From Crossaster papposus (Eukaryota > Echinodermata > Asteroidea > Velatida > Solasteridae): a DNA stretch of 64,000 bases. Positions within the stretch are counted from its first letter, which is position 1. Each line of letters begins with the position of its first letter. The notes below the pieces were generated by a model, which saw nothing but the letters and a program-made list of their open reading frames with translations, did no database searches and was not told the origin of the DNA. The position numbers and the translations under genes were made by a program. Positions 20,601 to 63,639 of the stretch are shown here, piece after piece. Location of the stretch: assembly GCA_037893245.1 (NCBI GenBank), contig JBAIAA010000110.1, positions 1,426,001 through 1,490,000 on the forward strand, written 5' to 3'.

Positions 20601-22973
20601 TTTCATGCAACACTTGAACAATTCAGCAGCTGGTCTCCTGCCTCGACATCTCCCGTGGAGTGCGCAAGGAATACGTCCTCTGCTGGGATGACGAATGTGA
20701 AGATCTGGTTTCCAGCCTCTGCATCCAAATAACCTTGACAGCGCCTATGACTGCTACTGCAAGGTAATACTCACTGCCGCCAAGAAGAACATCTCCCGTG
20801 GAGTGCGCAAGGCCTACGTCTCCTGCTGGGATGACGAATGTAAAGATCTACCTCAGCTGGTTTTCAGCCTCTGCATCCAGATAACCTTGACAGTGCCTAT
20901 GACTCCAACTGCAAGGCATATACTCACTGCCTCCAAGAAGAACATCCCCCGTGGAGTGCGCAAGGCCTACGTCCTCTGCTGGGATGACAAATGTGAAGAT
21001 CGATCTACTTCAGCTGATCTCCAGCCTCTGCATCCAGATAACCCGACAGCACCAGCTATGACTCCTACTGCAAGGTATTACTCACTGCCACCAAGAACAT
21101 CCTCCGTGGAGTGTGCAAGGCCTACGTCTCCTTCTCGGAGGACGAATGTGAAGATCTACTTCTGCTGGTCTCCGGCCTTTGCATCCAGATAACCATGACA
21201 GTGCCTATGACTCCTGCTGCCGCCAAGAAGAACATCCCATGTAGAGTGCCCAAGGCCTACGTCCTCTGCTGGGATGACGAATGTGAAGATCTACTTCAGC
21301 TGGTTTTCAGCCTCTGCATCCAGATAACCTTGACAGCGCCTATGACTCCAACTGCAAGGTATTACTCACTGCCTCCAAGAAGAACATCTCCCTGGAGTGC
21401 GCAAGGCCTACGTCTCCTGCTGGGATGACGAATGTGAAGATCTAGTTCAGCTGGTCTCCAGCCTCTGCATCCAGATAACCCGACAGCACCTATGACTCCT
21501 ACTGCAAGGTACATGTATTACTCACATGCCACCAAGAACATTGAGTGTGCAAGGCCTACGTCTCCTGCTCGAAGGACGAATATGAAGATGAACTTCTGCT
21601 GGTTTCCGGCCTCTGCATCCAGATAACTATGACAGTGCCTATTACTCCTACTGCAAGGTATTACTCACTGCCGCCAAGAAGAACATCCCATGTAGAGTGC
21701 CCAAGGCCTACGTCGTCTGCTGGGATGACGAATGTGAAGATCTACTTCAGCTGGTCACTAGTTTCTGTATCAAGATAGCCTGCGCCTATGCCTCCTACTG
21801 CAAGGTATTACTCACTGCCTCCAAGAAGAACATCCCCCGTGGAGTGTGCAAGGCCTACGTCTCCTGCTCAGAGGACGAATGTGAAGATCGATCTACTTCA
21901 GCTGGTCTCCATGCAGGCTCTGCATCCAGATAACCTCAAACAGAGCCTATGACTCCAACTGCAAGACATTACTCACTGCCTCTAAGAAGAACATCCCCGT
22001 GGAGTGCGCAAGGCCTACGTCCTCTGTGAAGATCTACTTCAGCTGGTCTCCAGCCTCTGCATCCAGAAAACAGCGCCTATGACTCCTACTGCATGCAAAG
22101 TATTACTCACTGCTGCCAAGAAGAACATCCCCTGTTGAGTTTGCAAAGCCTACCTCGACAGCGCCTATGACTCCTACTGCAAGGTATACTCACTGCCGCC
22201 AAGAAGAACATCTCCCATGGAGTGCGCAAGGCCTATACGGTATGTCCCCTGCTGGGATGATGAATGTGAATATCTACATCAGCTGGGCTCCAGCCTCTGC
22301 ATCCAGATGACCTCGACAGTGCCCATGACTAGGATGATGAATGTGAAGGTCTACTTAGCACTCATGAATTAAGAAGCAACAACCAACAAAGACAGGGATA
22401 ATGCAGCCAGTGATCTTTTTGGTAGGCTCAAAGAGAAATCCAGGCAGAGATGAATTGAGACTGTGGAATAGATCGACTTCACACATTCCAGGCATTGCAA
22501 ACCATCAATAAGCTCATGGGTTATAGGTCCAAGACCCCAACACAATGCCCAATTACGCAGACAGAAACTTTACTAGAGGTGACTTCACGGCACATGAACT
22601 CCAATTCAATTTTCCGAAACAATTCAGGATATCTAGCACAATAATTTTGCTGGATGCCTAGAATCATTATTTACTTTCAAATAAGCAAGATATTCCTCAC
22701 TGCAGTAACGCTTCTCAGATTCAAATTTTTGGGGATAAAAAGTGATATCTTTTTCCATAACCGCAGTACTTCGAACTATCCAAAGCTGCTGTACTTCTTA
22801 CCAATTAAGTTTTTATTGCCATTAATATTTGGAGTAATTACCAAACGTATACGATCCCTTTAATTGACTGCATCTTTTGTTTCCATCTTTCTCTGCAGGT
22901 GAACCACACAGTGATCATGATAACATCACACCTCAGAGAGAAGGCTCCTCATCTTAGAGCTGAGAGGGGGTGA
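14698..22973 (+). CDS. Possible unrecognised spliced gene (low confidence)
   Basis: I do not recognise this product. A first exon is suggested at 14698-14746: an ATG in AAAATGGCGGCACGG (a YY1-type start context), 16 codons beginning MAARRFEDFRK, then GTAAGT. A last part is suggested by three phase-compatible pieces: 17900-17942 (ADGVEMMASMCF), 18649-18706 (MGPDFSGFSILSKDRQFYK) and 22899-22973 (VNHTVIMITSHLREK, then a stop). Each has AG/GT borders. Open, splice-bordered stretches near 15740-15808 and 16671-16926 may be middle exons, but I could not chain them without a stop or a too-short intron. The locus is full of MITEs and holds a tandem array in its longest intron. It could be a real small gene, a lncRNA or chance; transcript data would decide. 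Confidence 0.25.
16671..16926 (+). other. Exon-like, GC-richer block
   Basis: It starts after a strong acceptor (TTTTTCTGTAG) and ends at GACGTAAG before GTAACT. An internal GTGAGGTAAC...TTTGTAG would be a 23-base intron, which is too short to be real. Positions 16672-16790 are open in one frame. The composition contrasts with the AT-rich surroundings. It may be an exon of the candidate gene at 14698 or a non-coding exon; no homology is recognised. Confidence 0.3.
17020..17126 (+). repeat. MITE family C, left fragment
   Basis: It begins GGGGTTCTGGCAAAATGAGAC and continues AATAACATTCTCC to CAATCGGACATTCTGTTAAA, matching the left part of the copy at 18719-19126. It is cut off by MITE A at 17123. 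Confidence 0.7.
17123..17525 (+). mobile_element. MITE family A, copy 1
   Basis: It starts at TTAA (17123), then AGTAGGATACACCATTGGTA, and ends with the inverted AATGGTGTATCCTACC at about 17521. The right flank is ATTAA. A G12 run lies inside. It is about 400 bp and non-coding. Confidence 0.85.
17976..18370 (+). mobile_element. MITE family B, full copy flanked by TTAA
   Basis: The ends are TTAAAGGGATCGTATACG and CGTATACGATCCCTTTAA, exact inverted repeats of 18 bases including TTAA. It is 395 bp and non-coding. A fragment of the same family is fused to family A at 22600-22863. Confidence 0.9.
18719..19126 (+). mobile_element. MITE family C, near full-length copy
   Basis: It begins TTAGGTAAGGAATTTTGGCA and ends GTCTCATTTTGCCATAATTC, the approximate complement. 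Isolated family ends also occur at 17020, 57470 and 59727 (GTCTCATTTTGCCAGAACCCC). It is non-coding. Confidence 0.7.
19306..19691 (+). mobile_element. MITE family A, copy 2
   Basis: TTAAAGGTAGTATACACCAT opens and ATGGTGTATACTACCTTTAA closes this 386-bp element. Its right TTAA (19688-19691) is also the left TTAA of copy 3, so the two stand head to tail with one shared target site. Confidence 0.93.
19688..20075 (+). mobile_element. MITE family A, copy 3
   Basis: It starts TTAAAGGTAGGATACACCAT and ends ATGGTGTATCCTACCTTTAA. It closely matches copy 2. Inside is a GC-rich palindromic core, CGCGATCGCCGTCCGGCGAC, near 19884. Confidence 0.93.
20590..22370 (+). repeat. Degenerate tandem array, ~145-bp unit, about 12 copies
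   Basis: The block AACATC(T/C)CCCGTGGAGTG followed by CGCAAGGCCTACGTC recurs near 20643, 20788, 20941, 21096, 21231, 21383, 21537, 21682, 21829, 21989, 22122 and 22207, with spacing from 85 to 160. One frame of the unit reads like protein (for example SKKNIPRGVRKAYV then CWDDECEDL). Units differ by non-multiples of three, so no long open frame survives. The wording resembles the endonuclease-RT linker of non-LTR retrotransposons. I read this as an amplified retroelement fragment, not a gene. Confidence 0.8.
22600..22863 (+). mobile_element. Chimera of MITE family A and inverted MITE family B
   Basis: 22600-22694 matches the internal right part of family A (GGATATCTAGCACAATAATT, GATGCCTAGAATCATTATTT). 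From 22695 the sequence is the reverse complement of family B, ending CGTATACGATCCCTTTAA at 22863. The join is near CTCACTGCAGTAACGC. Confidence 0.85.
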
Positions 22974-40414: not shown

Positions 40415-41340
40415 AGGCCGTGTCCAATTCACTTGGCTAAGGCTTGAAATTACACGCGAGTCTATGGTAGCGGCTTTAGCCATTTCATAAATTTTGAATC
40501 CATGGCTTCAATTCATTTTAGGCCGTTTTCCAAACCCCTGTTTCGTCTCTTGTGGCTTTGTTCATGCAGTTTGTCAATGGATTGGTGATCAAGTTAGAGG
40601 AATCAAATTTTGCGTTTTAAAAACGTTATAAGCACGATATGAGACCGGGGGACTCCCCCTTTTAGTCCCCCATACCTGAACAACCTCTAGACTATTGTTA
40701 CCTAACGCACCCATCCCTAAAAACATAAACAGAATTCCTGAGAAACCACAACATTCCGCAAACACAATGACCACCACAAAAGAGGAGGGGGTGTTTCTTT
40801 AGTGTCATATTTTGCCTCATAAAATCATGTCAACTTTGGGAACTCCAGCCTCAATCTGGCACCTGTTGTGCTTCATAAACATTCAATTGATTGAGTGAGC
40901 GAGTATTTAGGGTTTAACGCCGTACCAGCATCAATGGCCATATTCACGGCGGGAACAAATTTCATTCAACAATGTTTTATTTCATTCAACAATTAATGTG
41001 AAGAAGTTACAGTTTTAGAGGTGGGAGGAAAGCCCCAGAAGAATATCCTGGGGAAAAACCCACGGAGTCAGGCAGGGACTGAAAACCCAATCCACATAAT
41101 TGGCCCAGGCCGGATTCGAACCCGGGTCATAGTGGTGGAAGGCGAGGAAAGAACCGCTACACCAACCCGACTCCCCTCAATTGATTGATATAAACCCAAA
41201 AGTTCGAATATTTCTATTTACTTTAATAAAATTATATTTGTTTCTCAGTGATCCGGATGCGAAGACGAAGCAAAAGTTTTGAAGAAAAAAAACGACTTGT
41301 GTGTAATTTCAAGCCTAGTATAATTTCAAGCTTGTAGCGA
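40415..41340. repeat. MITE family F, longer copy interrupted by a SINE
   Basis: It opens GGCCGTGTCCAATTCACTTG, then GCTAAGGCTTGAAATTACAC; TGTGTAATTTCAAGCC-type text recurs at 41300. The middle part (ATTCAATTGATT ... AAACCCAAAAGTTCGAATA) is also found at 58840-58880. The SINE at 40895-41176 sits inside. Confidence 0.65.
40895..41176 (-). mobile_element. tRNA-derived SINE with 12-bp target duplication
   Basis: TCAATTGATTGA occurs at 40883-40894 and 41177-41188, a perfect target duplication. On the - strand the element starts GAGGGGAGTCGGGTTGGTGT, carries the B-box GGGTTCGAATCC, then a central part with CGTGGGTTTTTCCCCAGGAT and TTTCCTCCCACC. That central wording resembles conserved SINE central domains seen across marine invertebrates; I cannot name the family with certainty. 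Confidence 0.88.
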
Positions 41341-41661: not shown

Positions 41662-41868
41662 AGGACTTATATTTTGTCTATTTACAAACATCAAAAACAC
41701 AATTTAGAAATGATAGTACAAAGTTTCAGCCTATTGTGAAGGGCAGTACATGATGTATTTATATAATATATATTTTACAGAGTGCACAACTCAATTTTGG
41801 GGTAAGCTAAAGAAACTACTTTTAGAACCTTTTTTACTTAAAGCCCCAGTCCCATCGGCCAAGGATAC

Positions 41869-42362
41869 TCAAGGATACTCCCGGACATGATCCGGGAGTA
41901 TCCTTGAGTATCCTTGGTCATTTTTGGCTATCCGGGGGGTCATTTTCTCCCGGACACCGCCGGATAAAAGTCGAGAAAAACAGCCGGATAGAAGGGCCCG
42001 GATAGTCAAGGATAATCCCGGATACAACACGGATACTCCAGGATACTACACGAATACTACACGGATAGTCCCGGATATGACACGGATACCCAAGGATAGG
42101 CAATTTCATGTTACAAGCATGTTACCCGGATAGTCCAGGATACGACACGGACACCGCCGGATACAACACGGACACCGCCGGATACACCACGGATACACCA
42201 CGGACAGCGCCGGATACCCCCGGACAGCCAAGGATACTCCCGGATAGTCCCGGATAGTTCCGGACACTCACGGACATACTCCCGGACATGACACGGATAC
42301 CTCAAGGATACTCCCGGATATGTTCACGGACACTCCCGGACATCGCCGGATACTCCCGGATA
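41869..42362 (+). repeat. Left subterminal array of GGAYA motifs at ~10.45-bp spacing
   Basis: CGGATA/CGGACA and variants recur almost without gap. I counted 22 successive intervals between about 42127 and 42360: nearly all are 10 or 11 bases, total 230, mean 10.45. The orientation is GGAYA on +. The expected role is binding sites for the transposase or the accessory protein; this is inference. Confidence 0.9.
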
Positions 42363-42375
42363 GAGGAAAAAGCAG

Positions 42376-42383
42376 TATAAAAG
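42376..42383 (+). promoter_or_regulatory. TATA box of the accessory gene
   Basis: TATAAAAG lies just inside the left motif array. About 30 bases on is TTTTTCATCACTTC, with an initiator-like TCA (A at 42406). The ATG is at 42497, giving a ~90-base leader. Confidence 0.75.
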
Positions 42384-42496
42384 GAACGGGGTTTTGGGGT
42401 TTTTCATCACTTCCAACTGGACTTCCGAGGAGAGAACATCAACTTGTTCAGCCACTTCTTCAACTTCTTCAACTTCTTCAGCAACTTTGAACTGCC

Positions 42497-44085
42497 ATGC
42501 CTCCTAAGAAGAAGGAGCCCCTTGCCAAGAAGGCCAAGATGATTCTGGAAAAGAAAAGAAAAACTAGATCCAGGTCTAGTTCTGAAGCCAGCTCCAGATC
42601 CAGATCCAGAAGTCCTCCTGCACGTTCGCCCACTCCTCCTCCTCCTCCTCCTGAAGCTGACGTCCCGAAGAAGAGGGACAAAAAGAAGTCCGTGATACTG
42701 ACCAATGACCAGGAGGCCATGCTGGCCGACTGGTTGAGGGACAATGCGATGTTATATTCCAAGGGCTTGACGGAGTACAAGAACAGGGCAAAGAAAGTCG
42801 TCATGTGGCGAGAAAAAGCACAAGAGGTCAACCTGGAGTCTGGGGAGATGTTGAAGGTGTGGTACAATAGTGTGAGGACGAAGGTGGGGAAGCTCCTCAA
42901 AGTACAAAAAAGCGGAGATGCTGCAAGAACCCTGACTGACCGGGACAACTATCTCCTGAGGGACTTCGGATTCCTGATTGACCATGTCACTCGAGTGAAG
43001 GGAAAGCCTGCCTGCAGTGTAAGTAGAACAATACAGAATTATTTGCATTTCCATTTTATTATATACGTATACTTACCTTCTACTGAAGTCTCCATGTTTT
43101 TCAGTTCCACCATCTGCCATATACTCGTTCATAAATCTTACTTTAACACAGGTGTTCTTACCTCTTCTCTTTACAGTTGAAAGATCGCCTGGATACCGCA
43201 GTGCTGACGTGTGATGACTCCGACTGTGGCTCTGAAGCGGAGAACCAGATGATTCTCGATGCGGATGCCGAAGATGCCTGCTGCTCGCAAACAGGTCCTT
43301 CTTCTGACGTGGTTCCTCCTCTCATCCGACGTTCTTCTTCTGCCGGTGGCTCAGGCACAGCGAAAACCATGACGACAGCTGGGGGACAGCTCCCAACCAA
43401 GTCCCTCTCTTGTCCTAAAAAAAAGCAGACAGATCTGAACCGGAGCGCCGACGTGATGGAGTTACTGGCGTCCTTGGAGGAGCAGCAGGATAGGTCCAAA
43501 GCCGTGGAGGGAACGATTACTGGGATGCTCGGCCAGCAACCTAACCCCGGCAGGCCAACCTCTAGTTTTGGGGTTTGGATCGGCGACATGGCTGGCAACT
43601 TCCATCCTTCCTTGCTCAACCAATTCTACACGGAGAATACAGCACTGGTTGTACGGTATGCAGGAGAGACTGCACGTCTGGCGGCAATTCCTCCTCCTAC
43701 TCCTCCTCCTCCTCTTCCTTCTTCTTCCACGATGAATCCTCCTGCAGGACACTTCATCCCCATAGATCCACAGCAGCAGCAGCCGCAATACACGACTCTG
43801 GTGCACCAGCAGCAGCCTCCTCCTCAGCAGCAGCCTCCTTCTCAGCAGCAGCAGCACCAGCAGCAGCCTCCTTCTCAGCAGCAGCAGCCCTCCTTCTTCG
43901 CCTCCCAGGACCTAACCTGGAACACAATGGCACCAACCGCTGGCCAATCGTCATACAGCGCTTCAACGCCACAACATCCAGCTAGGTCAGCGAGCAACCC
44001 TGCGTTTAACACCAGCTTCTCATCCATTCCAAGTCTGAGGAATAATCCCAGTCTGTCACCAACTGTCTACCACCAGGATGACCAG

Positions 44086-44117
<32 letters not shown>

Positions 44118-44124
44118 ACCGTGA
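42497..44124 (+). CDS. Harbinger accessory protein: MADF-like DNA-binding domain plus Q-rich tail (two exons)
   Basis: Exons 42497-43018 and 43177-44124, phase 0, 489 aa. Order: basic and SR-rich start (1-64, nuclear-signal type KKKEP...KKAK), MADF-like domain about 70-136 (MLADWLRDNAMLYSKG, then an MWREKAQEVNLESGEMLKVW segment), acidic and Ser-rich middle, Pro-rich stretch, and a Gln-rich tail ending in about 13 Q. Harbinger elements typically carry a second Myb/SANT or MADF gene whose product binds DNA and brings the transposase to the nucleus and the ends. The Q tract is unusual. Poly(A) signals are at 44170 and 44295. It converges on the transposase gene. Confidence 0.85.
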
Positions 44125-44949
44125 TTGTGTTGAACAGTGTCAACAACAGTGGTCAAAACAGAGGCCAAAAATAAATAACTCTTGCGATTTCAACCATTTT
44201 TTGATATAACCATAACATGTATTACCATTTTTGATATAACCATAACATGTATTGTATATTTGTAAATAATAACTTCGTTATAACATGTGATAGCAATAAA
44301 ACCTTTGTTTTATTTGCAACTTACTTTGGTGTTGACTTGGTCATTTCATATAGTTCCTACAAGAAAAAACCGATGAAAGAAAGTTGAAGAAACGAAATAT
44401 GAAAAGTTAATAAACCGAAATTAAAAATGTACAAGTTCTAATAAAAAGAAATAAGAACCCTGGTAAACACTAATTTTGAAAGGGTCTTAAAAAAAAAACT
44501 ATGATTGCAATCATGATGCCAAAAGATTGCGAAAAGATTGCAAACAAACCGAAACAAATAGTAGTAGTAGTGAACCTGCAATGTTCATTTCTGCGTTTCT
44601 AAATTGTTCTCTTCTATTTTTAATAAATTCTATGTTTAATACCGCTGTTTCGTTTATTTATTCGGTTTTATCCATTTTCTTTGCATTTCCATCATCAGTT
44701 TTATTAATTTAATGAAACGAAACAACTTTTTAATATCATTATTACATTGGACATTTTATTAATAAATATCATTCTTCTTTTTTTGCTTTGTATTTCACAT
44801 CATCATCATTATCACATCATCATTGTTGTACAACAAACACACATCACATAATATATTAGATAATTACAGAGCATATAGGATATTTGCAATAGTCCATTGG
44901 ATATTGTTCACACAATAATTGTTAAGAGTTCAAAAGCACAATGTTCACA

Positions 44950-46365
44950 TCAGATCATGTCATCCTGCCAGGACACTGATCCAGCTTCGGAGTTCATGTA
45001 GGCACAGAAGTACTCTCTCTGGTTCTTGGCTGCCTTCGTAGTGGAGTTGTGTGGTAGGTCGGAGACTCCATCCAAGAGAGGGTTGTCCTTCCGCCATTCT
45101 CCAGGGATGACCGTGTGGTCGTCGTCCTCCTGGTCAGCAACATTGGTGATGTGTTCTGTCCTGTAGCGCATCCGCAAAAGATTGTGCAAGCAGAGGCAGG
45201 TCGTTACAATGCTCGTGACTGTCTCTGGATGCTGTAGCATCGTGGTCAGTAGACATCGGAAGCGATGCGCCAGAATACCGAAGGCGTTCTCCACGATTCG
45301 TCGACCCCTGGACAACCTGTAGTTGAAGATTCTCTCTGATTTGGACAAGTTCTTTTTGGAGAATGGCTTCATGAGCCACGTCTTCAAGGCGAAGGCGTCA
45401 TCTGCGGCAATGTAGAATGGCATGGGCTTGTCGTCGTTCGGTAGAGGCTCCGCTTCAGGAAGTCCCAGGAGTTTTTTCTCGATGGCTTCCTTCAACTCGC
45501 TGTTGTTAAAAACTTGAGCATCACCAGCTGATCCGTTGCTGCCGACCTCTGCCCATAGGAATTTGTAGTCAGCATCAACCAAGGCCATGAGGATGAGGGA
45601 ATGGTACCCCTTGTAGTTGTAGTACATCGAACCAGCACGAGCAGGACACTGTATGGCAATGTGCTTGCCGTCCAATGCACCAACGCAATGGTGCAGATTC
45701 CATCGATGACCGAACTCTTTGGCAATCTTCTTCCAATCGTCTGGGGTCGCTGGACATGGGATAAGTTCTGCAGAGTACTCCTCAACGATCGCAGCACAGA
45801 CTTGGCGGATGACTTTGGAGATGGTGTTGTGGGCCACCCTGAATCCATACATCAAGGAGTGGTAGCTTTCTCCAGACGCCAGGTACCTCAAGGTTATAGC
45901 CAACTTGATGCCAGCTGACAGAGGAACTCTAAAGTTATTCGGCTTTGGCTTGATCCTAGGCTCAATTCTAGTCAGGATCTCTTGGTACAAGTCTGGGTCC
46001 ATCCGCAGGAAGTTACGGAAGCCCTTGACGTCTTCAGCCTTCAGCTCTTCCATCAGACGTGCATATTGGCCCAGTTCTGGTCTTCTCTGTAGCCACTGCC
46101 TCACCCAGATGTTTCTCTGCCTTCTCGTTCTCCTAGCTTGAGTAGAAATTCTCTCAGTTTGTCGCTTCAGCTTGGCCTTTGCTATTGCAATAGCGGTTGA
46201 AATTGTCTTTTGCCGTATCTGCATCAGACTCCTCATGAGTCTGAGCTGGTCAGCAGTGGTCAGATGGTCCCCCATGCTTCTGGATAGGATGTAGATCTGT
46301 TGCTGCTGGTACTGTGGCAGAGATGATACGTCGCTGAAGCCGAGAGAAGAAGTGATGAAAGTCAA
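44950..46365 (-). CDS. HARBI1-type DDE transposase, complete
   Basis: 471 aa from the first ATG (46365); Met31 (46275) is a likely real start because the promoter predicts a transcription start near 46356. A helix-turn-helix-like region lies around 144-190 (SYHSLMYGFRVAHNTISKVI). The DDE nuclease has D232 (GALDGKHIAI), D322 (YIAADDAFAL) and E359 (RRIVENAFGI), with 36 residues between the last two. The family cuts and pastes the element at TWA sites. No stop or frameshift interrupts it and all three catalytic residues are kept. A - strand AATAAA is at 44755-44760. It is single-exon, converging with the accessory gene. Confidence 0.95.
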   Translation of the reverse strand: MTFITSSLGFSDVSSLPQYQQQQIYILSRSMGDHLTTADQLRLMRSLMQIRQKTISTAIAIAKAKLKRQTERISTQARRTRRQRNIWVRQWLQRRPELGQYARLMEELKAEDVKGFRNFLRMDPDLYQEILTRIEPRIKPKPNNFRVPLSAGIKLAITLRYLASGESYHSLMYGFRVAHNTISKVIRQVCAAIVEEYSAELIPCPATPDDWKKIAKEFGHRWNLHHCVGALDGKHIAIQCPARAGSMYYNYKGYHSLILMALVDADYKFLWAEVGSNGSAGDAQVFNNSELKEAIEKKLLGLPEAEPLPNDDKPMPFYIAADDAFALKTWLMKPFSKKNLSKSERIFNYRLSRGRRIVENAFGILAHRFRCLLTTMLQHPETVTSIVTTCLCLHNLLRMRYRTEHITNVADQEDDDHTVIPGEWRKDNPLLDGVSDLPHNSTTKAAKNQREYFCAYMNSEAGSVSWQDDMI

Positions 46366-46374
46366 AAAATGGCT

Positions 46375-46383
46375 CTTTTTATA
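46375..46383 (-). promoter_or_regulatory. TATA box of the transposase gene
   Basis: TATAAAAAG on the - strand, with TCATCACTTC starting 25 bases downstream (46358-46349). This is the same initiator text as at the accessory gene. The first in-frame ATG (46365) would lie upstream of this start site. Confidence 0.65.
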
Positions 46384-46395
46384 TGCTTTTCAGCG

Positions 46396-47165
46396 TTCAT
46401 CCAGGCGCATCCGTGATAGTCCGTGACTATCCGTGACTATCCGTGAAGCATCCGTCAGTATCCGTGTCATGTCCGTGACGCATCCGTGTATATCCGTGTA
46501 TATCCGTGGTATATCCTTGGTTATCCTTGGTTATCCGGGTATGTCCGTGTCTTATCCGTGTTGAATCCGTGTTGAATCCGTGTCGTGTCCGTGACTATCC
46601 GGGACTATCCGTCACTATCCGGGACTATCCGGCGTCACATCCGTGTTGACACCGTGTTGCATCCTGGAGTATCCGTGACCATCCGGCTGGAAATCCCAAA
46701 ATTTTCGTCCTTAACCGGGAGTGTCCGGGAGTGTCCGTGTTGTATCCTGGAGTATCCGTGTTGATGCCGGGACTATCCGTGACGGTTCCGTGCATATCCG
46801 TGATGATCCGGGACGTCTTTTTCGCTCCAGGATAGGGGCCGGATATACCCGGAATCAACACGGAACCGTCACGGATAGTCCCGGCATCAACACGGATACT
46901 CCAGGATACAACACGGACACTCCCGGATCGGGCGACTTCTTCCCGGATACTCCCGGACAAATTCTAATTTTTAAACCTCCCAACTTTTAAATTTCGGCTT
47001 CCCGGACAGCGCCGGACACTCCCGGATGCTGAAGGACACTGAAGGACTCTCAAGGATACTTCACGGACTCTCAAGGATACCTCACGGATAGGCCACCGGA
47101 TACTCAAGGATACTCAAGGACTCGTATCCGGGAGTATCCTGGAGTATCCTGCTGTCCGATGGGAC
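46396..47165. repeat. Right subterminal array of GGAYA/TRTCC motifs
   Basis: In 46409-46640 the motif is on the - strand (ATCCGTG...). There, 22 counted intervals again sum to 230 (mean 10.45). From about 46850 the motif runs on +, and the last ~30 bases turn again. The array contains a 68-bp perfect inverted repeat (46725-46926). Confidence 0.9.
46725..46926. repeat. Perfect 68-bp inverted repeat inside the right array
   Basis: 46725-46792 is the exact reverse complement of 46859-46926, with a 66-base spacer. It begins CCGGGAGTGTCCGTGTTG. Perfect identity points to a recent inverted duplication, or to conversion between the arms. Confidence 0.93.
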
Positions 47166-47200
47166 TGGGGCTTAACATAAAACTGATTTGGTTGTTAATT

Positions 47201-48216: not shown

Positions 48217-51200
48217 TTACTGTTCTCCCCTACTTCCAAAAATGGAACGGTCCACTTTGAAGTTCAGCTGATTGCCTGTGCACAGAGAAAGATAAGTTAC
48301 ATATCTATGGAAGCCTCTTGCTGACATTGTGAATAGGTCTATTTTTATGGACATGTAAAAATGTAGTAAAATTAGGTAAATAAACTAGGGAAAGTAGGAA
48401 TACATGATAACCTGCAACAAAAACATGATCTGTTGTTTTTCATAATTTGCATATTGAATATTCATTAGGGAGTGTGTGCCCAACTCACCACGGCATGTTC
48501 CAAGTTGATCAGCTTAGCTGTTGTCTCACATAGCTGCTGGTCTTTCTCACCCAACTCCTGCAAAATCATTTCAAAAACACAAACGAATGTTTAATTAATG
48601 AATTGTTTATGGAATACATACTATAAAAACATCTTAAAATGCTGACTTTTCAAAAAGTTACAAATTGTTAGATTAAACAAAGAGTGGTAGGCAGTAAAAA
48701 GGAAGTGAATGAGAAATGTTGGCCTAATAAACTGGCTCACGATTTCTATTCGGTCTTTGAGTAAACAAATAATCACTTTGAAACAAAAACAATTCAAATT
48801 GTTCACTTACAGTTTTTAAACTCTCTAGTTCGTAGCTCTTCCGAAGTAGCTGCTCTTTTTGTGTTTTCTTCTTTGCTTCTTTCTATTATTTAAAAAAAAT
48901 AAAACAAAATATGTGACCTGTTCCAACGAAACCCGGACAAAGTCGCACAATGTGTTTTGTCACAATGTACTCCTGAAGTAATTTCGGGATGGATTTTACC
49001 ATTTTGAGATTTTAGTTTTTCCTAAGTCACTTACTATTAATCTACAATCTCCTCAAATTTGAACAAAATCCGTATACCAGAAGTGTGTTTTTTGGTCAAT
49101 TTTGTGAAACATTTGTGTATATAAATAATACGCCTCTGAACTTCAAAGCTGTTTATCTCATAATTAGGTTGTCAGGGTTTTATCACTAAATCCAGACCCC
49201 AGGGAAGATAGGGTGGGGGTACATATGTAAATGATACATCATTTTAAAGCTGAGAACCTAGAGAATTTGAAAAAAGCAAAATCTGAAAAACTAAAAAGTC
49301 AACTTTGTCCGGGTTTCGTTGGAACAGGTTACAAATTAACGATGAATCGGCCTTATGCTAGCTACGTGACAACTCTATTTTTTTATTTTTTTATAAACCC
49401 GCAGCAACCCACCTTCATCTTGGTCGCCTCGTCCTCATAGCAGTTGTGCTTCGGCCACGTCTGCTTGCTGTTTTTGGTGTCGTTCTCCAAGTGGAATGTC
49501 TGTCAATAGAAGGAAGAAGAAAAACAATTTCAGACAATAGAATTATAACAACAAATTGCCTAATTGCCACACGGCATTCTGGTGTTTATGACTTCTGACT
49601 AGCGCACTCGAACAAAGATATTGACGATTTGGGAGACCGCCAACATAGGGCAAGATAGCTCAGTTGGTAGAGCGCCGGTTCGGTATTCCGGAGGTCGCAG
49701 GTTGGCGTCCCGCTTTGTCAATTTCTTTATATGCTTTGATTTACCTATGTCCTTTGTCCTTTGAAATACGGCTACCTTCCCTACTCTTTCCTACACAGTG
49801 TGAGTTCAGACTGTTTCTATCCATTTATGTGGAGACCATGTATTATTTGTTCAGTTTTTGTTTGTTTGTTATTGCTTTTGCTGTTCACCTTTTTGTTCTT
49901 AATGGCTCGGTTCAGTCTCTTCTCCTGGTCAAGCCCTTCCCTGGTCCTTCTCAGTGTCTCCCGGAGGTAGTGTGCCTCTTCCGTTCTGCCGTGAAGGTCG
50001 TTCTGAAACCACACCCAAGAAATATGCAGGGTTATCCATACTCTATGAAAGATTAATTACAGGTGCCAACTTTTGGGGCAAAAATAGTTTTGCAAAACCT
50101 GAAGGGTAGTAAAGAGCGGAAGGTTAAAGACAATCTGTTGGCTCTCTGAAAACTGATCAAAACTTGATCCAAAATGAAAGGTTGGATAATCCTCAACTTT
50201 CAAATTGTACACGTTGAAGACTTACAGCCAGTTTTTCAACTTGTGCTGACTTCCCATTGGCCAGTTTCTCAGCCAATCGTAGCTTCTCTAGATCCTTCTC
50301 GTAGTCCTTCAGAAGTTCGTCTTTGCGTTCCAGTCGCTGGTTCAGTGTCCGCAGCCGGCTGGCGATCAGCTCCTTGGTGTTGGCCCGTTCCCCGGCAATC
50401 CTGTCGCGCTCGTCCTTGGGGAGGTGGCCCATGGAATCCTGGCCGGCTACCTCGCCCAGGCTCAGGAGGTTGGCTACCGACTGGGCCAGCTTGAGATACT
50501 GTGAGGTTACAATCCAGACAGAAACAATATCAGGGGAAAATGAGAAATTGTAGTCTGTAACTCAAGGTTTACCTGGAGGATTACCGAGGGTTTACGTTTA
50601 CCGGGTGGTTTACCAAGAGGTTTATCAAGAGGTTTATCCGGAGGTTTACCTCAACATTTACCTCAATTTGTTTTCAGGTTTTTTTCCCAATGATGCTTTT
50701 AAGTCATGTTTTTCCAACGATGGATAGCTGACAATTGTTGCAAATTAATACAAAAAATCCACATTCTTGATAATGACAGCATACTAGCTACAATAATTTG
50801 CACAGTTAAATAAGGTATTTGTTATAATAATTTGGTAGTCTTGTTTTGTTATGTTTGTAAAGGTTTATTCATTACCTTTAAAGGTAGGATACACCATTTG
50901 CAGATTCCAAACGTCAAATCCACCCATTCATGATAATTCAAGCAATTACCAATGGTGTATCCTGCCTTTCAGGTTTAAAGACGATATGTTAAAATCACAA
51001 TGTCGGGGTAATATTACGATTGACTCACCGACTGTTCACTGATCTCCAGACCTTGCTGCATCTCGATACGAGCGCTCCGCTCGATGACCGCATCGGAGGA
51101 CGCCGTGGAGATCTGGCCCCGCGCCTTGGCCACCTCCCTCTCCAGCACGGCCTCCGGGTTGGCCCCGCCCACCCCTCCTGGCTGGCCCTGGTCCATGATC

Positions 51201-54200
51201 TGGGCCTGCTTGGCTCGCATCTCGGCCAGCTCCTTCTTGAGGAGGATGACCTGCTGGAGGGCCTGGTCTTGAGTTGGCACTGGAGACACAAAACAGTACA
51301 ACAATAAACGAATTATAGGTGTGCAAGAGATGAGGTCAGCAATAAGTGATGATAACATGTGGAAGTTAAAGGTAGGATACACCATCTGTAATTACTTGGA
51401 TTATCATGAATGGGTTGATTTTTTTTGGGGGGGGCGTATTTTTTAGTAAATATCATTTAACTGACCTGTCTAAAGTTTTACAATCAAGGATGCCAAGAAA
51501 ATCACGAAAAACAGTGTTTGTTTTCAACCGGAGTCAGGCAGTTATTCTTATGCTATTATTGTTTTTTGGGCGATCGCCGTCCAGTTTCTACTGTTTCGAA
51601 TCCAGGGTGAGAGTTTTAACCCGGGTTGAAAATATCAACCCTAGTCTGGAGCAGGGTCGAGTTCAACCAGGGTTGAAATCAATCTAGGGGTTGACGCAGG
51701 CTTAGCACAGGGTTGAAAATAGTCAAGTGTGTGAATCGTTCAATGTTTTTAACCCTGTATCAACCCTGTGTCAACCCCGAGATATGACTGGTGTCATATA
51801 GGCTTTTGCATGATTTATTTGGAATCATACCCATCCTTGCAAATTCTAAGACATTTTCATTTTAAGAAAGCTTGACAAAAAAAATGAACTTTTTGTCACA
51901 AGCATTTCATTAAGTTTGATTTGCCATGCCGTAAGCAGGTTCAGAGAGGTTTGTAGTACAAGAGTCTGTGGATCATCGCAACAACAAACAAACAAAGTTG
52001 AATGTAACAGTTGTAATGAGAGCAAGATAACTGGTACGTACGTGGTGGTCGGTTTGATTCTATTCCTTTGATGCGTGACCTGAGCTCCGCCAGTGCCTCC
52101 CGTTGTCTGGCGATAACCTGCTCATGTCTCTCCCCCCTGCACTGGGCTCCGAAGGCCGACATCTCGCTGGTGATCATACCCTGAAGAAACCAAAGAAACG
52201 TAAACAATAATCAGCAATCTACAGTGTCCTGGCCTGACCAGTCGGAACACTCTGCAACCGATGCAATCGAGTCAGGCCTGCTCACCTCTTGTTGCACCTG
52301 TTCCAAGGCCCGTTTGCTGCTCTCCTGTTCATGACCCAGTTGGGCCTGCAACTTGGCCAGCTCGTCGCCCTTCATCAACGCGTCTTGCTTGTGCTTGGAC
52401 ACCATCTCCTTCTGGGAACTGACGGATTGAGAGCACAGCAAGAGAAAATTTGGTCACAGAAAATTAAAAAGCATGAGGGAACATTTGCAACAACCCGAAA
52501 TGTTCTGTAATAAGATAATGACAATTTGGAAGACCGCCAACATAGGGCAAGATAGCTCAGTTGGTAGAGCGCTGGTCCGGTATTCCAGAGGCCGCAGGTG
52601 CAAGATTCACCTTGCCGATTTCTTCGTTCACTTTAAAAGTAATGATTGAAGAACAGAAAGCTTGCTCAAAGTGACTACAGGACTCATATTGTTATCTTGT
52701 TATGACTTTCTTCCGACTACAAAACACAAGACACAAAAACCAGTCTTAGTCCAGACTTAGATTCCAAGCATCCACAAACGGCCTTCGAGTACCCCTCCCC
52801 AAAACTCACCCCAGATCCTTGACCAATCGCTCGGTTTCTGCCGCCTTCCTGTCCACCAGCTCTGACAGCTTGACCAGCTGCTGCCTCTGAGTGGTCAGCT
52901 CGGCCTCCTGGTCTCGGATCAGCAGGCGGTTGTTCTCCAATTCCTCCTTTTGCCGCTCGTTCAGCTCGCCGGTCATGTCCGACAGGCGGGCCGCCGCACC
53001 GGCCAGGTCTCGCCGCAGGCCTAGGGTAACGTTCTGCTGATCCTGCAACTCTTTTTTCAGGTTGCTGTTCTCTTTCCTTACACCACAAAAAAAGGAAATA
53101 AAAATGGTTGGCCAGTTTTCAACAAGTATGTTTAAAACTGACTCATTGCCCTGGTTGCGTTATGCCCAAGCCAAAGAAAAGGGCATTATCAATGTTAAGT
53201 TATAAAACTTTAGACAAATGCAATTTGTACAATATTTGTCCCCCAGCATTTAACTCGGTTTTCTTTTTTGTAACATTCAATCAACTTTTATAAAATAAAG
53301 AACTTTTGTGTACAAATTTTAAAACAGAGCTTATAGGCTTTAAGACAACAACAAGCTGTCTTAAAAAATAAAAGAATGACCTTAAAATGCAACATTATAC
53401 AAATCTAATTTATCTTTAGACTGAACTTGGTGTGATGTAGTGTATGTACCGCCCATCCTATCTACACACATTACGAATCCATAACACCTCGTTAAGGTGA
53501 ATATTTAATATTCAATGTGAATATTCATAATAGGGGTGGAGTCTCACACAGACAACCTACTTGAGTAAGCCAATCAGCTGCTCCATGCCCTTGACATCAG
53601 CAGCAGGTTGCTGGACGATGACCGGTTTGGGCGGGATCTCCGGCTTGCTGGCCTGCTGCTGGAACTTGAGAAGCATCTCCTGTGCCTTCCTAGTTTGCTC
53701 TGCTCAGATACAAGAAAATGTGAACGAACAATCTTAAAACATTTAGGAAATGCAGGCTTTCAAGCAGACTCAGATGAAAAATTAGGAGAAAAGTAGGATC
53801 AACATTTTCAAAAAAGCAGAACAAAAGTTGGACTTTGGAGGACAAAATCAAGATGAAAGTAGGACTTTTGCAGGCTTTCAGGAGTAATTTTTGGCAATAC
53901 TCGTACATGTCCACAGCATTGTCAGCCTCATTTGGCATGTTCTGTACTCACAACTCTTGTGCTCTTCCTGCATCTAAGCTCTTGGAAGTACAAAACCTAT
54001 CATTGTGTTATTTACATATATGACAGCGTGTCACAATGTTTAGAAAAACATTCAATGAGAATTTAAAAAAACTGTTAAAAATTTTAAACACTTTAAAAAC
54101 AATATGTCAGGGCTAGTTGACAAATTTGGGAAAGCCGTACACAGTTCAACTTCGTTCCAATTTCACAGCGAATGCTTTATGACGTCGAATCTGAATGCCG

Positions 54201-60200: not shown

Positions 60201-63200
60201 AAGCAACAGCACTCAAACATCAAACATGGAATGATGCTTTAAGGAAAAGCTTTAAGGAATGTCCAAAACACAAATATAAAGGGTTACGAGGAGTTTGGTC
60301 GAGTAGTTGGGGTTTATAACTCGTGATTCGAGAGTCAGGGATTCAAATCCAGCGACTTTTACAAGTTCTTTTACAATTCCAGTCACAATTCCAGTCACAA
60401 TTCCAGTCAGCTTTAAGGAATGTCCAAAACACAAATATAAAGGGTTACGAGGAGTTTGGTCGAGTAGTTGGGGTTTATAACTCGTGATTCGAGAGTCAGG
60501 GATTCAAATCCAGCGACTTTTACAAGTTCTTTTACAATTCCAGTCACAATTCCAGTCTCAAGTCCAGTCACAAGTCCAGTCTCAAGTCCAGTCTCAAGTC
60601 CAGTCTCAAGTCCAGTCACAAGTCCAGTCTCAAGTCCAGTCACAAGTCCAGTCTCAAGTCCAGTCTCAAGTCCAGTCTCAAGTCCAGTCACAAGTCCAGT
60701 CTCAAGTCCAGTCACAAGTCCAGTCTCAAGTCCAGTCTCAAGTCCAGTCACAAGTCCAGTCTCAAGTCCAGTCACAAGTCCAGTCTCAAGTCCAGTCACA
60801 AGTCCAGTCTCAAGTCCAGTCACAAGTCCAGTCTCAAGTCCAGTCTCAAGTCCAGTCTCAAGTCCAGTCTCAAGTCCAGTCTCAAGTCCAGTCACAAGTC
60901 CAGTCTCAAGTCCAGTCACAAGTCCAGTCTCAAGTCCAGTCTCAAGTCCAGTCTCAAGTCCAGTCACAAGTCCAGTCACAAGTCCAGTCACAAGTCCAGT
61001 CACAAGTCCAGTCACAAGTCCAGTCACAAGTTTGTTCATAAAGCCAGTCACAAAACTGGTTGAACAATGACAAAGAAATGATGAGATTTGAAGGTTTGCA
61101 TGGCGGAAAAGGCAATAAGATAAGTAGTTTAATTCGGTAATTCTCTTCAGTGAGATCTGTGGTTCTGAAAAGAACCGGCTGGTATGCTCTGCCCGTCGAT
61201 GCCAACGGCGAAGGGGGGGTTATATCGAGCCTTGAAGTGATAAAGCGTACGAAGGAATACCGTTGTTCATTTGATATATAGCCAGAGACTTGCAGGAACT
61301 TGCAGGGTCTTGATTACAACTATGGCATGTTCGCACAACTACTTTTTTTTAGAGCTACGTCTATTTCTAATATTTAACCTAGAGTTGAAACTGACAACAG
61401 ACTTTCTGGTGCAGAGTTGGTCGACAAAGGCCACAGGGTTAGAGCATGCGATTCTACAACGTATTTGTCAGCTACGATCTAGATCTCATGACCTGTGAAC
61501 AGCCACGTTAAAAACTTACATCCGTACTCCTAAGAACCTCACGGTCCTTGCGCGAGAGTTGGTCTCGCAGCCGAGTATTACCGACTTCCGAATCCATCAA
61601 CTAGTGAACAAAGAGACAAGCCGCTTTATTAAAGGTTTTGTTTTTGCACTCGGGACATACTTACGTGTTTGAAACTCATGAGCTCCTTGTTTCTGCCGGC
61701 CATTTCCTCCTCGTGTTTTTTGTTTTCTCGGAACCTCGACAACTGGGAACGATGAGCACAGGGGAATTATTAAGTCGGGCAGACTGGTGCCAAATATGAC
61801 AGAATTGTTCACTTGATGATAAAAGCATGAAATTAGGCACACAGTCAAAAGTATGTCATGAATAAAGATATTTAGCTATAGGGCCATCAAATATTTGACT
61901 AAAAATATAGGTAGAATAACTTGCAATGGCAGGCATTTTGACTAATTGAGATGAAGATGTGACCAAAAATAAAGTTAAGACCGCCTTCCAACATTTGATT
62001 AAAGCCAGAAAACTGGAAAGTGGATATTCAAATGATTTCTTCTTTTCCTAAAAGGTACATGTGGTGTTTTTTTTATAATTTTTTTCCAGAAAGTACACAA
62101 TACCTGAAATTTTGGTTTATAACCGTTTTTGCCAAGATACAATTTTCATGCTTAGCAAATTTGTGTGCTTAGCAGCTCTTTGAAATTTGCCCCAGGTTCG
62201 TTCTTTTTTCTTTGCAGTTTACAATAGACAAATGAAAACGTCATTTTAAACCACATTCTGATTGACTGTTTATGGCTACAGTTGTTTACATTGACATACT
62301 GTAACAAGCATCCAAAGCTGTTACTTTCAGGCATAGCCAGTAATACCTTGGCTGTCATGGCCGAGAGCGACACCTCCTTCTCCCGCAGCTCCCTCTTGAC
62401 GATCTCCAGCTCCCCCCTCATCCGGCAAATGGTGTTGTCCCGGTTGGCCATGTCCCTCTGCAGTGTGGTCGCCAGCCCATTGACTGTGGCCTTCTCCTTC
62501 TTGGACCGTTCCACTTCCTGTTTGAGGGAGGTCTGCTCCCGCTCCTTCTGGATGAGGGTGCTGCGCAGGTGGGCCACATTTTCCATGGGATCGGAACTCT
62601 CAGGACGCATCTTGGTCATCTTCAAAGGAAAAGTTCAATCAAATGTCTATTAGGGGTGTGCATTTACGGGAACTGGGTACCCGATTACAAAAAACACTGG
62701 TACCCGTTAAAGAAGCCAAACTCCAAAATTTAAATCTCCCAAGTTTTTTTCTCAGCTTGTTCATAAAGATGCGCACTATAATACTGCCATATCAGGCAGT
62801 TTGTATGGCTGTACTTGTGAGGACCCTGCAATGTACTTGTGACTGACTTGTGATGTACTTGTGATGTACTTGTGATGTACTTGTGAGGACTTTGCGATGT
62901 AGTTGTGACTGACCTGTAATGTACTTGTGACTGACTTGCGATGTACTTGGGAGGACTTTGCGATGTACTTGTGACTGACTTGTAATGTACTTGTGACTGA
63001 CTTGCGATGTACTTGAGAGGACTTTGCGATGTACTTGTGACGACTTTGCGATGTACTTGTGACTGACTTGTAATGTACTTGTGACTAACTTGTAATGTAC
63101 TTGTAATGTACTTGTGACTGACTTGTGAGGACTTGTGAGGACTTTGTGATGTACTTGTGACTGACTTATGATGTACGTGTGAGGACTTGTCCTTGCGGTG

Positions 63201-63639
63201 ACTTGCTATGTGCTTTTGACTGAATTGTGATGTTGTGAGAACTTGTGACTGATTTGTGGTGTAGCTTGTAAAGACTTGTGATTCTCTTGTGATGTACTTG
63301 TAAGAGCTTGTGATGTGCTCAATAACAATACCGTTTTTTGTGGCGATACTGGAGTTTCTCAGACCACTGCCAACCAACCTGTTCTTTTAACGCGTTGATT
63401 TCCAGCTGCTTCATGTGTATATCAGCCTCCAGCTCCTTCACCCTGGTCTGCAGGGCCGCCGCGGCGTGAGTGTTGGCATCTCCTCCGGCCGTGGGTCGCA
63501 GGACCCCCTGATGAAGCTCAGCAGCCATGGCTTCCACCTCGTCCCTTAGCTGAGCGATCACGCCGTCCTTGCGCAGGGATTCTGACTCGAAGACGGCCAA
63601 GCGGTTGATCTCGTCACCCATGCGTAGCAGACGTTGCTC
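48217..63639 (-). CDS. FHAD1: FHAD1-like long coiled-coil protein, 3' part (23 exons, 5' end beyond the window)
   Basis: Exons on -: 63639-63379, 62619-62347, 61742-61665, 61600-61520, 58662-58558, 58410-58303, 57872-57627, 57277-57079, 56563-56375, 55573-55446, 55310-55221 (acceptor +/-1), 54668-54431, 53699-53561, 53076-52810, 52418-52286, 52180-52042, 51279-51029, 50498-50226, 50002-49889, 49499-49413, 48882-48811, 48557-48489, 48267-48217. Phases agree throughout, giving 1,196 residues and a stop. Nearly all of it is Glu/Lys/Gln/Leu-rich coiled coil. Marker stretches are [31 protein letters not shown] and [14 protein letters not shown]. Human FHAD1 is about 1,412 aa with an N-terminal FHA domain, so about 200 residues, including any FHA domain, should lie right of 64000. 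The identity rests on these stretches, length and the neighbour EFHD2. Another coiled-coil family is possible. The molecular role is poorly known. Confidence 0.78.
48912..49333. mobile_element. MITE G with 32-bp inverted ends
   Basis: The left end TGTGACCTGTTCCAACGAAA then CCCGGACAAAGT is mirrored at the right with a single mismatch (positions 4/4). It is about 420 bp and non-coding, in an FHAD1 intron. No clear target duplication. Confidence 0.9.
49635..49735 (+). repeat. tRNA-derived SINE, near complete head
   Basis: GACCGCCAACATAGGGCAAG, then A-box ATAGCTCAGTTGGTAGAGCG, then TATTCCGGAGGTCGCAGG with a mutated B-box. It lies in an FHAD1 intron. Confidence 0.85.
50570..50675. repeat. Short degenerate tandem repeat (GGTTTACC type)
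   Basis: GAGGTTTACC and variants recur about eight times at 10-13 base spacing in an FHAD1 intron. Confidence 0.6.
50878..50969 (+). mobile_element. MITE family A, internally deleted mini-copy
   Basis: Only 92 bp: the left end TTAAAGGTAGGATACACCAT, a few bases, then the right-end strand TGATAATTCAAGCAATTACC and GGTGTATCCTGCCTTT. Both ends derive from the same terminus type. Confidence 0.8.
51366..51592 (+). repeat. MITE family A, right-truncated copy
   Basis: It starts TTAAAGGTAGGATACACCAT and follows family A up to GGGCGATCGCCGTCCAG, then diverges into unrelated GGGTTGA-rich DNA. Confidence 0.8.
51600..51785. repeat. Inverted GGGTTGA-type repeat region
   Basis: AACCCGGGTTGAAAATATCA, AACCAGGGTTGAAATCAATC and ACAGGGTTGAAAATAGTCA are followed by the reverse motif in AACCCTGTATCAACCCTGTG. 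It is a small foldback-like repeat of unknown type. Confidence 0.45.
52529..52632 (+). repeat. tRNA-derived SINE, near complete head
   Basis: GAAGACCGCCAACATAGGGC, then AGATAGCTCAGTTGGTAGAG, then GGTATTCCAGAGGCCGCAG and a mutated B-box. It shares its 5' flank with the copy at 49635, so that flank belongs to the SINE. Confidence 0.85.
54735..55075 (-). repeat. Cluster of degenerate tRNA-like blocks
   Basis: On the - strand there are several B-box-like motifs in a row (complements of GGGTTTGAACCCC at 54914, GGATTTGAACTCC at 54943, GGAGCTAGAACCCC at 55004). Each is paired with A-box-like remnants such as TAGTGCACATAAAGAATAAC or GTAGAGCACTGGAACAT. It is probably a decayed multimeric tRNA-SINE. 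Confidence 0.5.
56250..56372. repeat. MITE family F, copy
   Basis: CAGGCCGCATCCGAAACTCT opens and GCCCGTTTCAGACACAGAC closes. It shares GGGGAAATGCTGACAATAGC with 32210-32335. It abuts an FHAD1 exon donor at 56374. Confidence 0.78.
56704..56920. repeat. MITE family E, decayed copy
   Basis: AGCCAGTTTCAAGGAGCTGC then TAATCACAAAATTGTGCTTAG; the right end is lost after CATGCTAAGCAACAA. It lies in an FHAD1 intron. Confidence 0.7.
57941..58030 (+). repeat. tRNA-like block (SINE or tRNA pseudogene)
   Basis: GGAGCTGGTTTAGTTCAGTC then AGTAGAGCATCGGACCAATG, then GGTCCGCAGTTCGAGTCGG. The arms look tRNA-like but do not pair perfectly. Confidence 0.55.
58730..59118. repeat. MITE family F, longer copy
   Basis: It carries the same middle text as 40840-41270 (GATTGATATGAAACCAAAAG, CTCAGTGATTTGGAAG). 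A short (GAAGCCAGAGGC)n run lies at 58918-58980, and it ends TTTGGACACAGCC. Confidence 0.6.
59119..60248. other. FHAD1 intron, nothing recognised except one repeat end
   Basis: A family C end (CCGTCTCATTTTGCCAGAAC) lies at 59727. The rest is AT-rich and featureless. Confidence 0.4.
60249..60540 (+). repeat. Tandemly duplicated tRNA-like SINE with a CAATTCCAGTCA tail
   Basis: The 161-bp unit GCTTTAAGGAATGTCCAAAA ... starts at 60249 and again at 60410. Each has a tRNA-Leu/Ser-like GTTTGGTCGAGTAGTTGGGG and B-box GGGATTCAAATCC, and ends in repeats of CAATTCCAGTCA. The second copy runs straight into the minisatellite. Confidence 0.85.
60541..61033. repeat. 12-bp minisatellite, about 41 copies
   Basis: CAAGTCCAGTCT and CAAGTCCAGTCA alternate in a non-simple order, ending in a run of the second type. 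Because 12 is a multiple of three, all frames stay open on both strands and give spurious long ORFs. It evidently grew from the SINE tail. Confidence 0.95.
61110..61265 (+). repeat. Penelope-like element terminal fragment
   Basis: GCAATAAGATAAGTAGTTTA, GAGATCTGTGGTTCTGAAAA and TATGCTCTGCCCGTCG match the terminal part of the element at 23495-23690. Confidence 0.75.
62090..62196. repeat. MITE family E, right-end fragment
   Basis: TTTGCCAAGATACAATTTTC, then TGTGCTTAGCAGCTCTTTGA and AATTTGCCCC. The left end is not found. Confidence 0.7.
62795..63320. repeat. Degenerate tandem repeat (GATGTACTTGTGACTGACTT)
   Basis: Mixtures of GATGTACTTGTGA, CTGACTTGTGA and GGACTTGTGA units of about 10-12 bases repeat some 45 times. 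The array lies between the first two FHAD1 exons of the window. The open frame on the - strand is a by-product. Confidence 0.88.

Follow-up and report, generated by a model that had tools for sequence, protein, structure and literature searches.

The transposition mechanism of PIF/Harbinger elements has not been thoroughly characterised (PMC9710019). In zebrafish Harbinger3_DR, a 9-bp subterminal motif is recognised by the Myb-like protein, which is also a partner of the transposase (PMC9710019, citing Sinzelle 2008). In rice, mutation of the Myb-like domain of ORF1 led to no detectable excision in yeast (PMC2836001). Here we analysed a 64,000-nucleotide stretch of the Crossaster papposus genome (contig JBAIAA010000110.1, positions 1,426,001 to 1,490,000; hereafter the window), which contains a PIF/Harbinger-type transposon with two convergent open genes at 41842-47172 (5331 bp). 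Similar to Harbinger3_DR and rice Ping/Pong, this element has a DDE_Tnp_4 transposase, a 3-bp TAA target duplication and a short terminal inverted repeat (TIR), and its second protein, a weak MADF match, may correspond to their MADF/Myb-like protein. In contrast to them, it carries arrays of tens of units at each end. No Harbinger with such arrays was found among the titles and abstract openings listed by searches of an open-licence library, which is no proof of absence. We consider it somewhat probable that the ends of this Harbinger have grown into long CMMGGAYA arrays which serve as a multi-site platform for a protein of the element itself, in both synapsis and self-regulation. The putative binder is most likely the MADF-like second protein.

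The borders and the transposase place the element in its class. TAA duplications, read directly from the sequence, stand on either side of the perfect 17-bp TIRs (AGCCCCAGTCCCATCGG), in agreement with the 3-bp TWA duplication and short TIRs of PIF/Harbinger elements. The transposase matched the Pfam family DDE_Tnp_4, which is that of PIF/Harbinger enzymes, with 114.9 bits (E = 3.5e-33; cut-off 24.8), and its open frame contains three motifs with what we take to be the D, D and E residues. The initial annotation was right in calling this a Harbinger element, and its span of 41869-47165 only needed slightly wider borders. When up to 3 mismatches were allowed, no TIR copies were found in the window besides the element's own two. 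The search for transposase relatives gave 14 pattern stretches in viral_contigs and 26 in genome_contigs, none of which was confirmed, and a PDB sequence search with the transposase returned 0 matches. A four-unit array pattern matched one viral contig (L001) in one run of four CCGGATAAAA copies, which was taken as chance.

Both ends of the element are rich in GGAYA motifs. The density of GGAYA/TRTCC had a window median of 1 per 500 bp, and was 10, 31, 26 and 12 in the bins of the arrays. All 19 matches of a three-unit pattern in the window fell within the element, and 100 shuffles gave 0.00 on average. This confirms the arrays, which far exceed chance. The dozens of motifs first reported at both ends were recovered as 84 strict GGAYA motifs, which form six blocks by orientation, or as 101 units with a relaxed position weight matrix (PWM). 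The order of the blocks is identical from either tip inward, namely a few inward units (3 on the left, and 4 on the right, one of which overlaps the TIR), an outward block and a long inward block. The borders of the left and right main arrays, which are these long blocks, were set by our choice. The outward block holds 3 units on the left versus 21 on the right, and the right array changes direction accordingly: it runs on the minus strand at 46395-46826, on the plus strand to 47122, and then on the minus strand again. In the left tip palindrome, three inward units face three outward ones, two of them full and one partial, and the two tips can be aligned across about 75 bp, this unit palindrome included. 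The right outward block contains one arm of the 69-bp perfect inverted repeat, so it probably arose in part by inverted duplication.

The observed/expected CpG ratio was 1.10 (41859-42365) and 1.22 (46400-47150) in the arrays, 0.68 in the window and 0.53-0.61 in the element genes, and the core CGG of the units retains its CpG. The contrast between arrays and genes counts in favour of the binding-platform reading. The sequence CGGATACT occurred 8 times in the window on both strands, always in the arrays of the element (42030, 42347, 46457, 46668, 46751, 46893, 46944 and 47097).

The structure of the unit was obtained with a circular hidden Markov model (HMM; 11 states, best of 12 starts), for which the three long blocks were the input and no motif was supplied. 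What emerged was a CMMGGAYA core, conserved for the most part, with most of the extra bases falling into three states of low information. The core had 0.96-1.90 bits at C, GGA, Y and the second M, 0.70 bits at the first M and 0.74 bits at the last A. The three other states had 0.13-0.50 bits; one of them lies between Y and A and is mainly filler for stretches fitting no unit. This bears out the earlier claim that the sequence varies around a fixed core. Judged from the sequence, this pairing of a conserved core and a loose linker is what a protein-binding array would be expected to show.

Promoter signals were found next to both main arrays. The left main array is oriented toward the MADF-like gene and the right one toward the transposase gene, and both point at a TATAAAA box followed by the identical decamer TCATCACTTC (Table 1). 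The right box also lies 19 bp past a GGATG at 46402 that was left uncounted (PWM 1.2, under the threshold). This arrangement, absent from the initial annotation, suggests that the arrays may be promoter-proximal regulatory DNA besides transposon ends. If they are a binding platform, numerous weak sites spaced by roughly one turn would allow the second protein to coat each end cooperatively, and the coated ends would bring the transposase to the cut sites at the termini. The same coating would raise or limit the expression of both element genes, because the arrays reach the TATA boxes of both, and the protein level would be coupled to mobility.

The spacing of the units was close to one helical turn. 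Among the 95 neighbour intervals, 55 were 10 bp, 23 were 11 bp, 4 were 12 bp, 1 was 8 bp (it involves a low-scoring unit at the TIR) and 12 were longer. The 10- and 11-bp steps made up 78/95, mostly 10 or 11 as the initial annotation had it, and 83/95 did not exceed 12 bp. The claimed spacing near 10.5 bp held in the two main blocks, and the mean of the four long runs (64 intervals) was 10.44. The mean of all intervals of at most 12 bp was 10.35 (95% confidence interval 10.22-10.48, with 10.5 just outside), and it was still 10.35 (n = 80) without the duplicated arm. The reported 22 consecutive intervals totalling 230 bp were found on the left with the strict motif (run 42128-42358), but in the right main block only with degenerate units (GGATG/GGATT); with the strict motif, steps of 21, 33, 44 and 52 appear there.

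One explanation for this regularity is that the spacing itself was selected, so that all bound proteins would share one face of the helix and build an unbroken filament or a wrapped complex. We regard it as rather unlikely. It is favoured by the right main block, whose phase lasts for about 400 bp across gaps of 21, 21, 32 and 22 bp, with R = 0.94 at the best period of 10.50. Of the 443 distances between pairs in this block that did not exceed 220 bp, 95% deviated by no more than 1.5 bp from a multiple of 10.5. Both main blocks showed a spectral peak at 10.55 and top self-similarity lags including 10, 21, 31 or 32, 42 and 63. There was no interval of 9 bp against 23 of 11 bp, although the absence of 9-bp steps is as compatible with a minimum footprint as with phasing.

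Other results are mixed or speak against this explanation. In the left main block, 62% of 485 pairs were in phase; for the right distal block the figure was 47% of 193, with a better fit at 10.0 or 10.75 than at 10.5 (spectral peak 10.00). The phase was broken by gaps of 24, 14 and 34 bp in the left main block and of 49 bp in the right distal block. With the gaps included and the period fixed at 10.5 bp, the left main (P = 0.037) and right main (P = 0.014) blocks were better phased than shuffled intervals and the right distal block was not (P = 0.741); none was significant in the best-period test (0.443, 0.126 and 0.892, respectively). Under one-face selection, a short step should be compensated by the following long step. 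The order of the intervals failed to show this, being no better phased than random permutations in all of the four long runs (P = 0.27, 0.65, 0.19 and 0.91). A CAC unit followed 21/23 of the 11-bp steps versus 9/55 of those of 10 bp (Fisher P = 5e-10; a few intervals of the duplicated arm enter this count twice), so the mix of 10 and 11 bp is largely the product of two unit types of different lengths. The view that the mix is a sign of helical-face selection was not upheld. A more specific version, in which the about 35 one-turn-spaced sites of each main block would form a one-faced filament acting as synaptic platform and promoter switch of both genes, with the palindromic tips marking the cut sites, is in our judgment unlikely.

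The arrays might also be plain minisatellites that have grown by slippage within the ends and have no binding function, which we consider quite improbable. The window is rich in minisatellites, and the perfect 69-bp inverted repeat suggests a recent rearrangement. In the right main block, neighbouring units resembled each other beyond chance (P = 0.003, versus 0.085 for the right distal block), which points to some local copying in the right main block. In the left main block, however, adjacent units were no more similar than shuffled ones (P = 0.63). The likeness of the cores in this block is therefore not due to recent slippage, and the core seems to have persisted through the divergence of the linkers. 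The conservation sits in the core and the extra bases in the linker, which also speaks against slippage. For comparison, the 11-bp minisatellite at 62810 showed multiples of 11 in 24/28 intervals (lags 11, 22, 33, 44, 55 and 66), so a mix of 10 and 11 bp is no general trait of the repeats in the window. Slippage of units was set low as the whole explanation on account of the core conservation, the neighbour tests and this minisatellite.

The main blocks aligned with each other over most of their length, better than unit-shuffled versions (Smith-Waterman score 113; unit-shuffled null mean 92, maximum 117; P = 0.007, 300 shuffles), a result in favour of the binding-platform reading. The similarity of the right main to the right distal block (P = 0.010) includes the 69-bp perfect repeat. 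No support was obtained for a common origin of the right distal block and the left main block (P = 0.53).

Finally, the ends may serve for nucleosome positioning or DNA bending. WW and SS dinucleotides alternated at 10.5 bp with an offset of about 4 bp in the main blocks, where the SS amplitude was 0.24 and 0.28 (99th percentile outside, 0.098). In a wedge model of curvature, the left main block ranked 15th by percentile within the window for its mean end-to-end ratio (lower is more curved), and a local minimum of 0.783 in the right distal block fell under the 1% value of the window (0.802). We nevertheless find this explanation very improbable, since any array with a CCGGATA core yields such a dinucleotide pattern, the SS amplitude at 10.5 bp was only 0.04 in the right distal block, and the mean curvature of the three blocks (15th-37th percentile) was not extreme overall. 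The bent ends proposed earlier were weakly supported at best, and intrinsic curvature as the main purpose was set low; the strong curvature of this model was confined to one local stretch, within the right distal block.

Several points weigh against reading the arrays as a platform on which the second protein binds at many sites. The MADF accessory protein of the initial annotation was recovered as a weak match. PF10545 (MADF_DNA_bdg) matched exon 1 of the second gene over 79/84 profile positions, and the protein has a Q-rich C terminus. The score was 20.5 bits (E = 6e-4) for the whole 489-aa prediction and 20.9 for the 227-aa open reading frame (ORF), both under the Pfam cut-off of 22, and only the fragment trimmed to the domain passed it (23.5, E = 7e-5). 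The single-sequence AlphaFold model of the MADF fragment had a mean pLDDT (predicted local distance difference test) of 43, which was unusable and was set aside. The PDB sequence search with the accessory ORF gave 8 unrelated chains (best E = 0.29) and nothing useful. All array and spacing results come from a single copy of the element within the 64-kb window. The right TATAAAA box is 49 bp away from the last strict GGAYA (46432), and the local copying in the right main block adds to these points. The binder could instead be the transposase or a host factor. In addition, the arrays could restrain mobility rather than promote it, because the subterminal sequences of piggyBat inhibit transposition (PMC11707139).

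Table 1. Coordinates of the element and its parts in the window.
Feature	Position	Strand	Details
Left target-site duplication TAA	41839..41841	.	read directly
Left TIR AGCCCCAGTCCCATCGG	41842..41858	+	17/17 identity with right TIR
Left tip palindrome	41859..41917	.	27-bp perfect arms, 5 nt between
Left main array	41940..42372	+	36 units over 414 bp; gaps 24, 14, 34 bp
TATAAAA box, left	42376..42382	+	18 bp past last left-array GGA (42358, strict unit)
Decamer TCATCACTTC, common to both putative promoters	42404..42413	+	28 bp beyond box start
Second (accessory) gene, two exons	42497..44124	+	predicted intron 43019-43176, predicted 489 aa
Transposase, DDE_Tnp_4	44950..46275	-	441 aa counted from first ATG, open frame
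Decamer TCATCACTTC	46349..46358	-	25 bp beyond box start
TATAAAA box, right	46377..46383	-	29 bp past last counted unit (GGATG, 46412)
Right main array	46395..46826	-	34 units over 405 bp; phase R = 0.94 at 10.50 bp
Perfect inverted repeat, 69 bp	46724..46927	.	arms 46724-46792 and 46859-46927; straddles orientation switch
Right distal array	46815..47122	+	21 outward units, one 49-bp gap
Right tip imperfect palindrome of units	47098..47149	.	23-nt arms, 87%, 6 nt between
Right TIR	47156..47172	-	17/17 identity with left TIR
Right target-site duplication TAA	47173..47175	.	read directly

Other features were observed elsewhere in the window. A mitochondrial carrier match was located at 9020-9382; this match, the predicted intron and the element itself point to a eukaryotic origin of the window. 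Tandem arrays were found at 7555-7917 (20 bp x 18 copies, 99% matches), 20705-22235 (units of about 150 bp), 60535-61031 (12 bp x 41 copies) and 62810-63313 (11/22 bp, the minisatellite mentioned above). Two tRNA-like Rfam matches at 49649-49720 (39.2 bits) and 52546-52617 (31.2 bits), neither reported by ARAGORN, are possibly the heads of short interspersed elements (SINEs). About 700 bp to the left of the element, a stretch resembling a tRNA B box (GGATTCGAACCC, 41060-41180) was recognised by eye in a possible SINE, with no match in Rfam or ARAGORN.

With its open genes, about 100 candidate sites, well-marked unit boundaries and promoter signals that match at both ends, the element would be a natural substrate for tests of the PIF/Harbinger mechanism. 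Such tests could address a possible role of the second protein as a cooperative coat and the relevance of the near-one-turn spacing.

Internally repetitive ends are already known in other superfamilies, and here they are found in a Harbinger. In maize En/Spm, many 12-bp subterminal sites at both ends are bound by the accessory protein TnpA, which also controls the promoter; En/Spm belongs to a different superfamily and has fewer sites. The repeats of Drosophila FB are 10, 20 and 31 bp. Similar to the foldback-type elements Galileo, Tm1 and FB, the element described here has long, internally repetitive inverted ends, with main blocks of 414 and 405 bp that can be aligned with each other. The enzymes are different: Galileo has a P-type and Tm1 a Mutator/Phantom-type transposase, whereas Pfam returned DDE_Tnp_4, Plant_tran and a sub-cut-off DDE_Tnp_1 for the element here. 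The repeats of Tm1 are 13-15 bp and not near one helical turn (PMC3169594). The TIR repeat of this nematode Foldback element, CGATTCAGTATCCGC, contains the reverse complement of CGGATACT, possibly by coincidence (PMC3169594). The long TIRs of Galileo contain repeats to which the THAP domain of its transposase binds, and the authors of that study suggested that the many sites confer specificity (PMC3688188).

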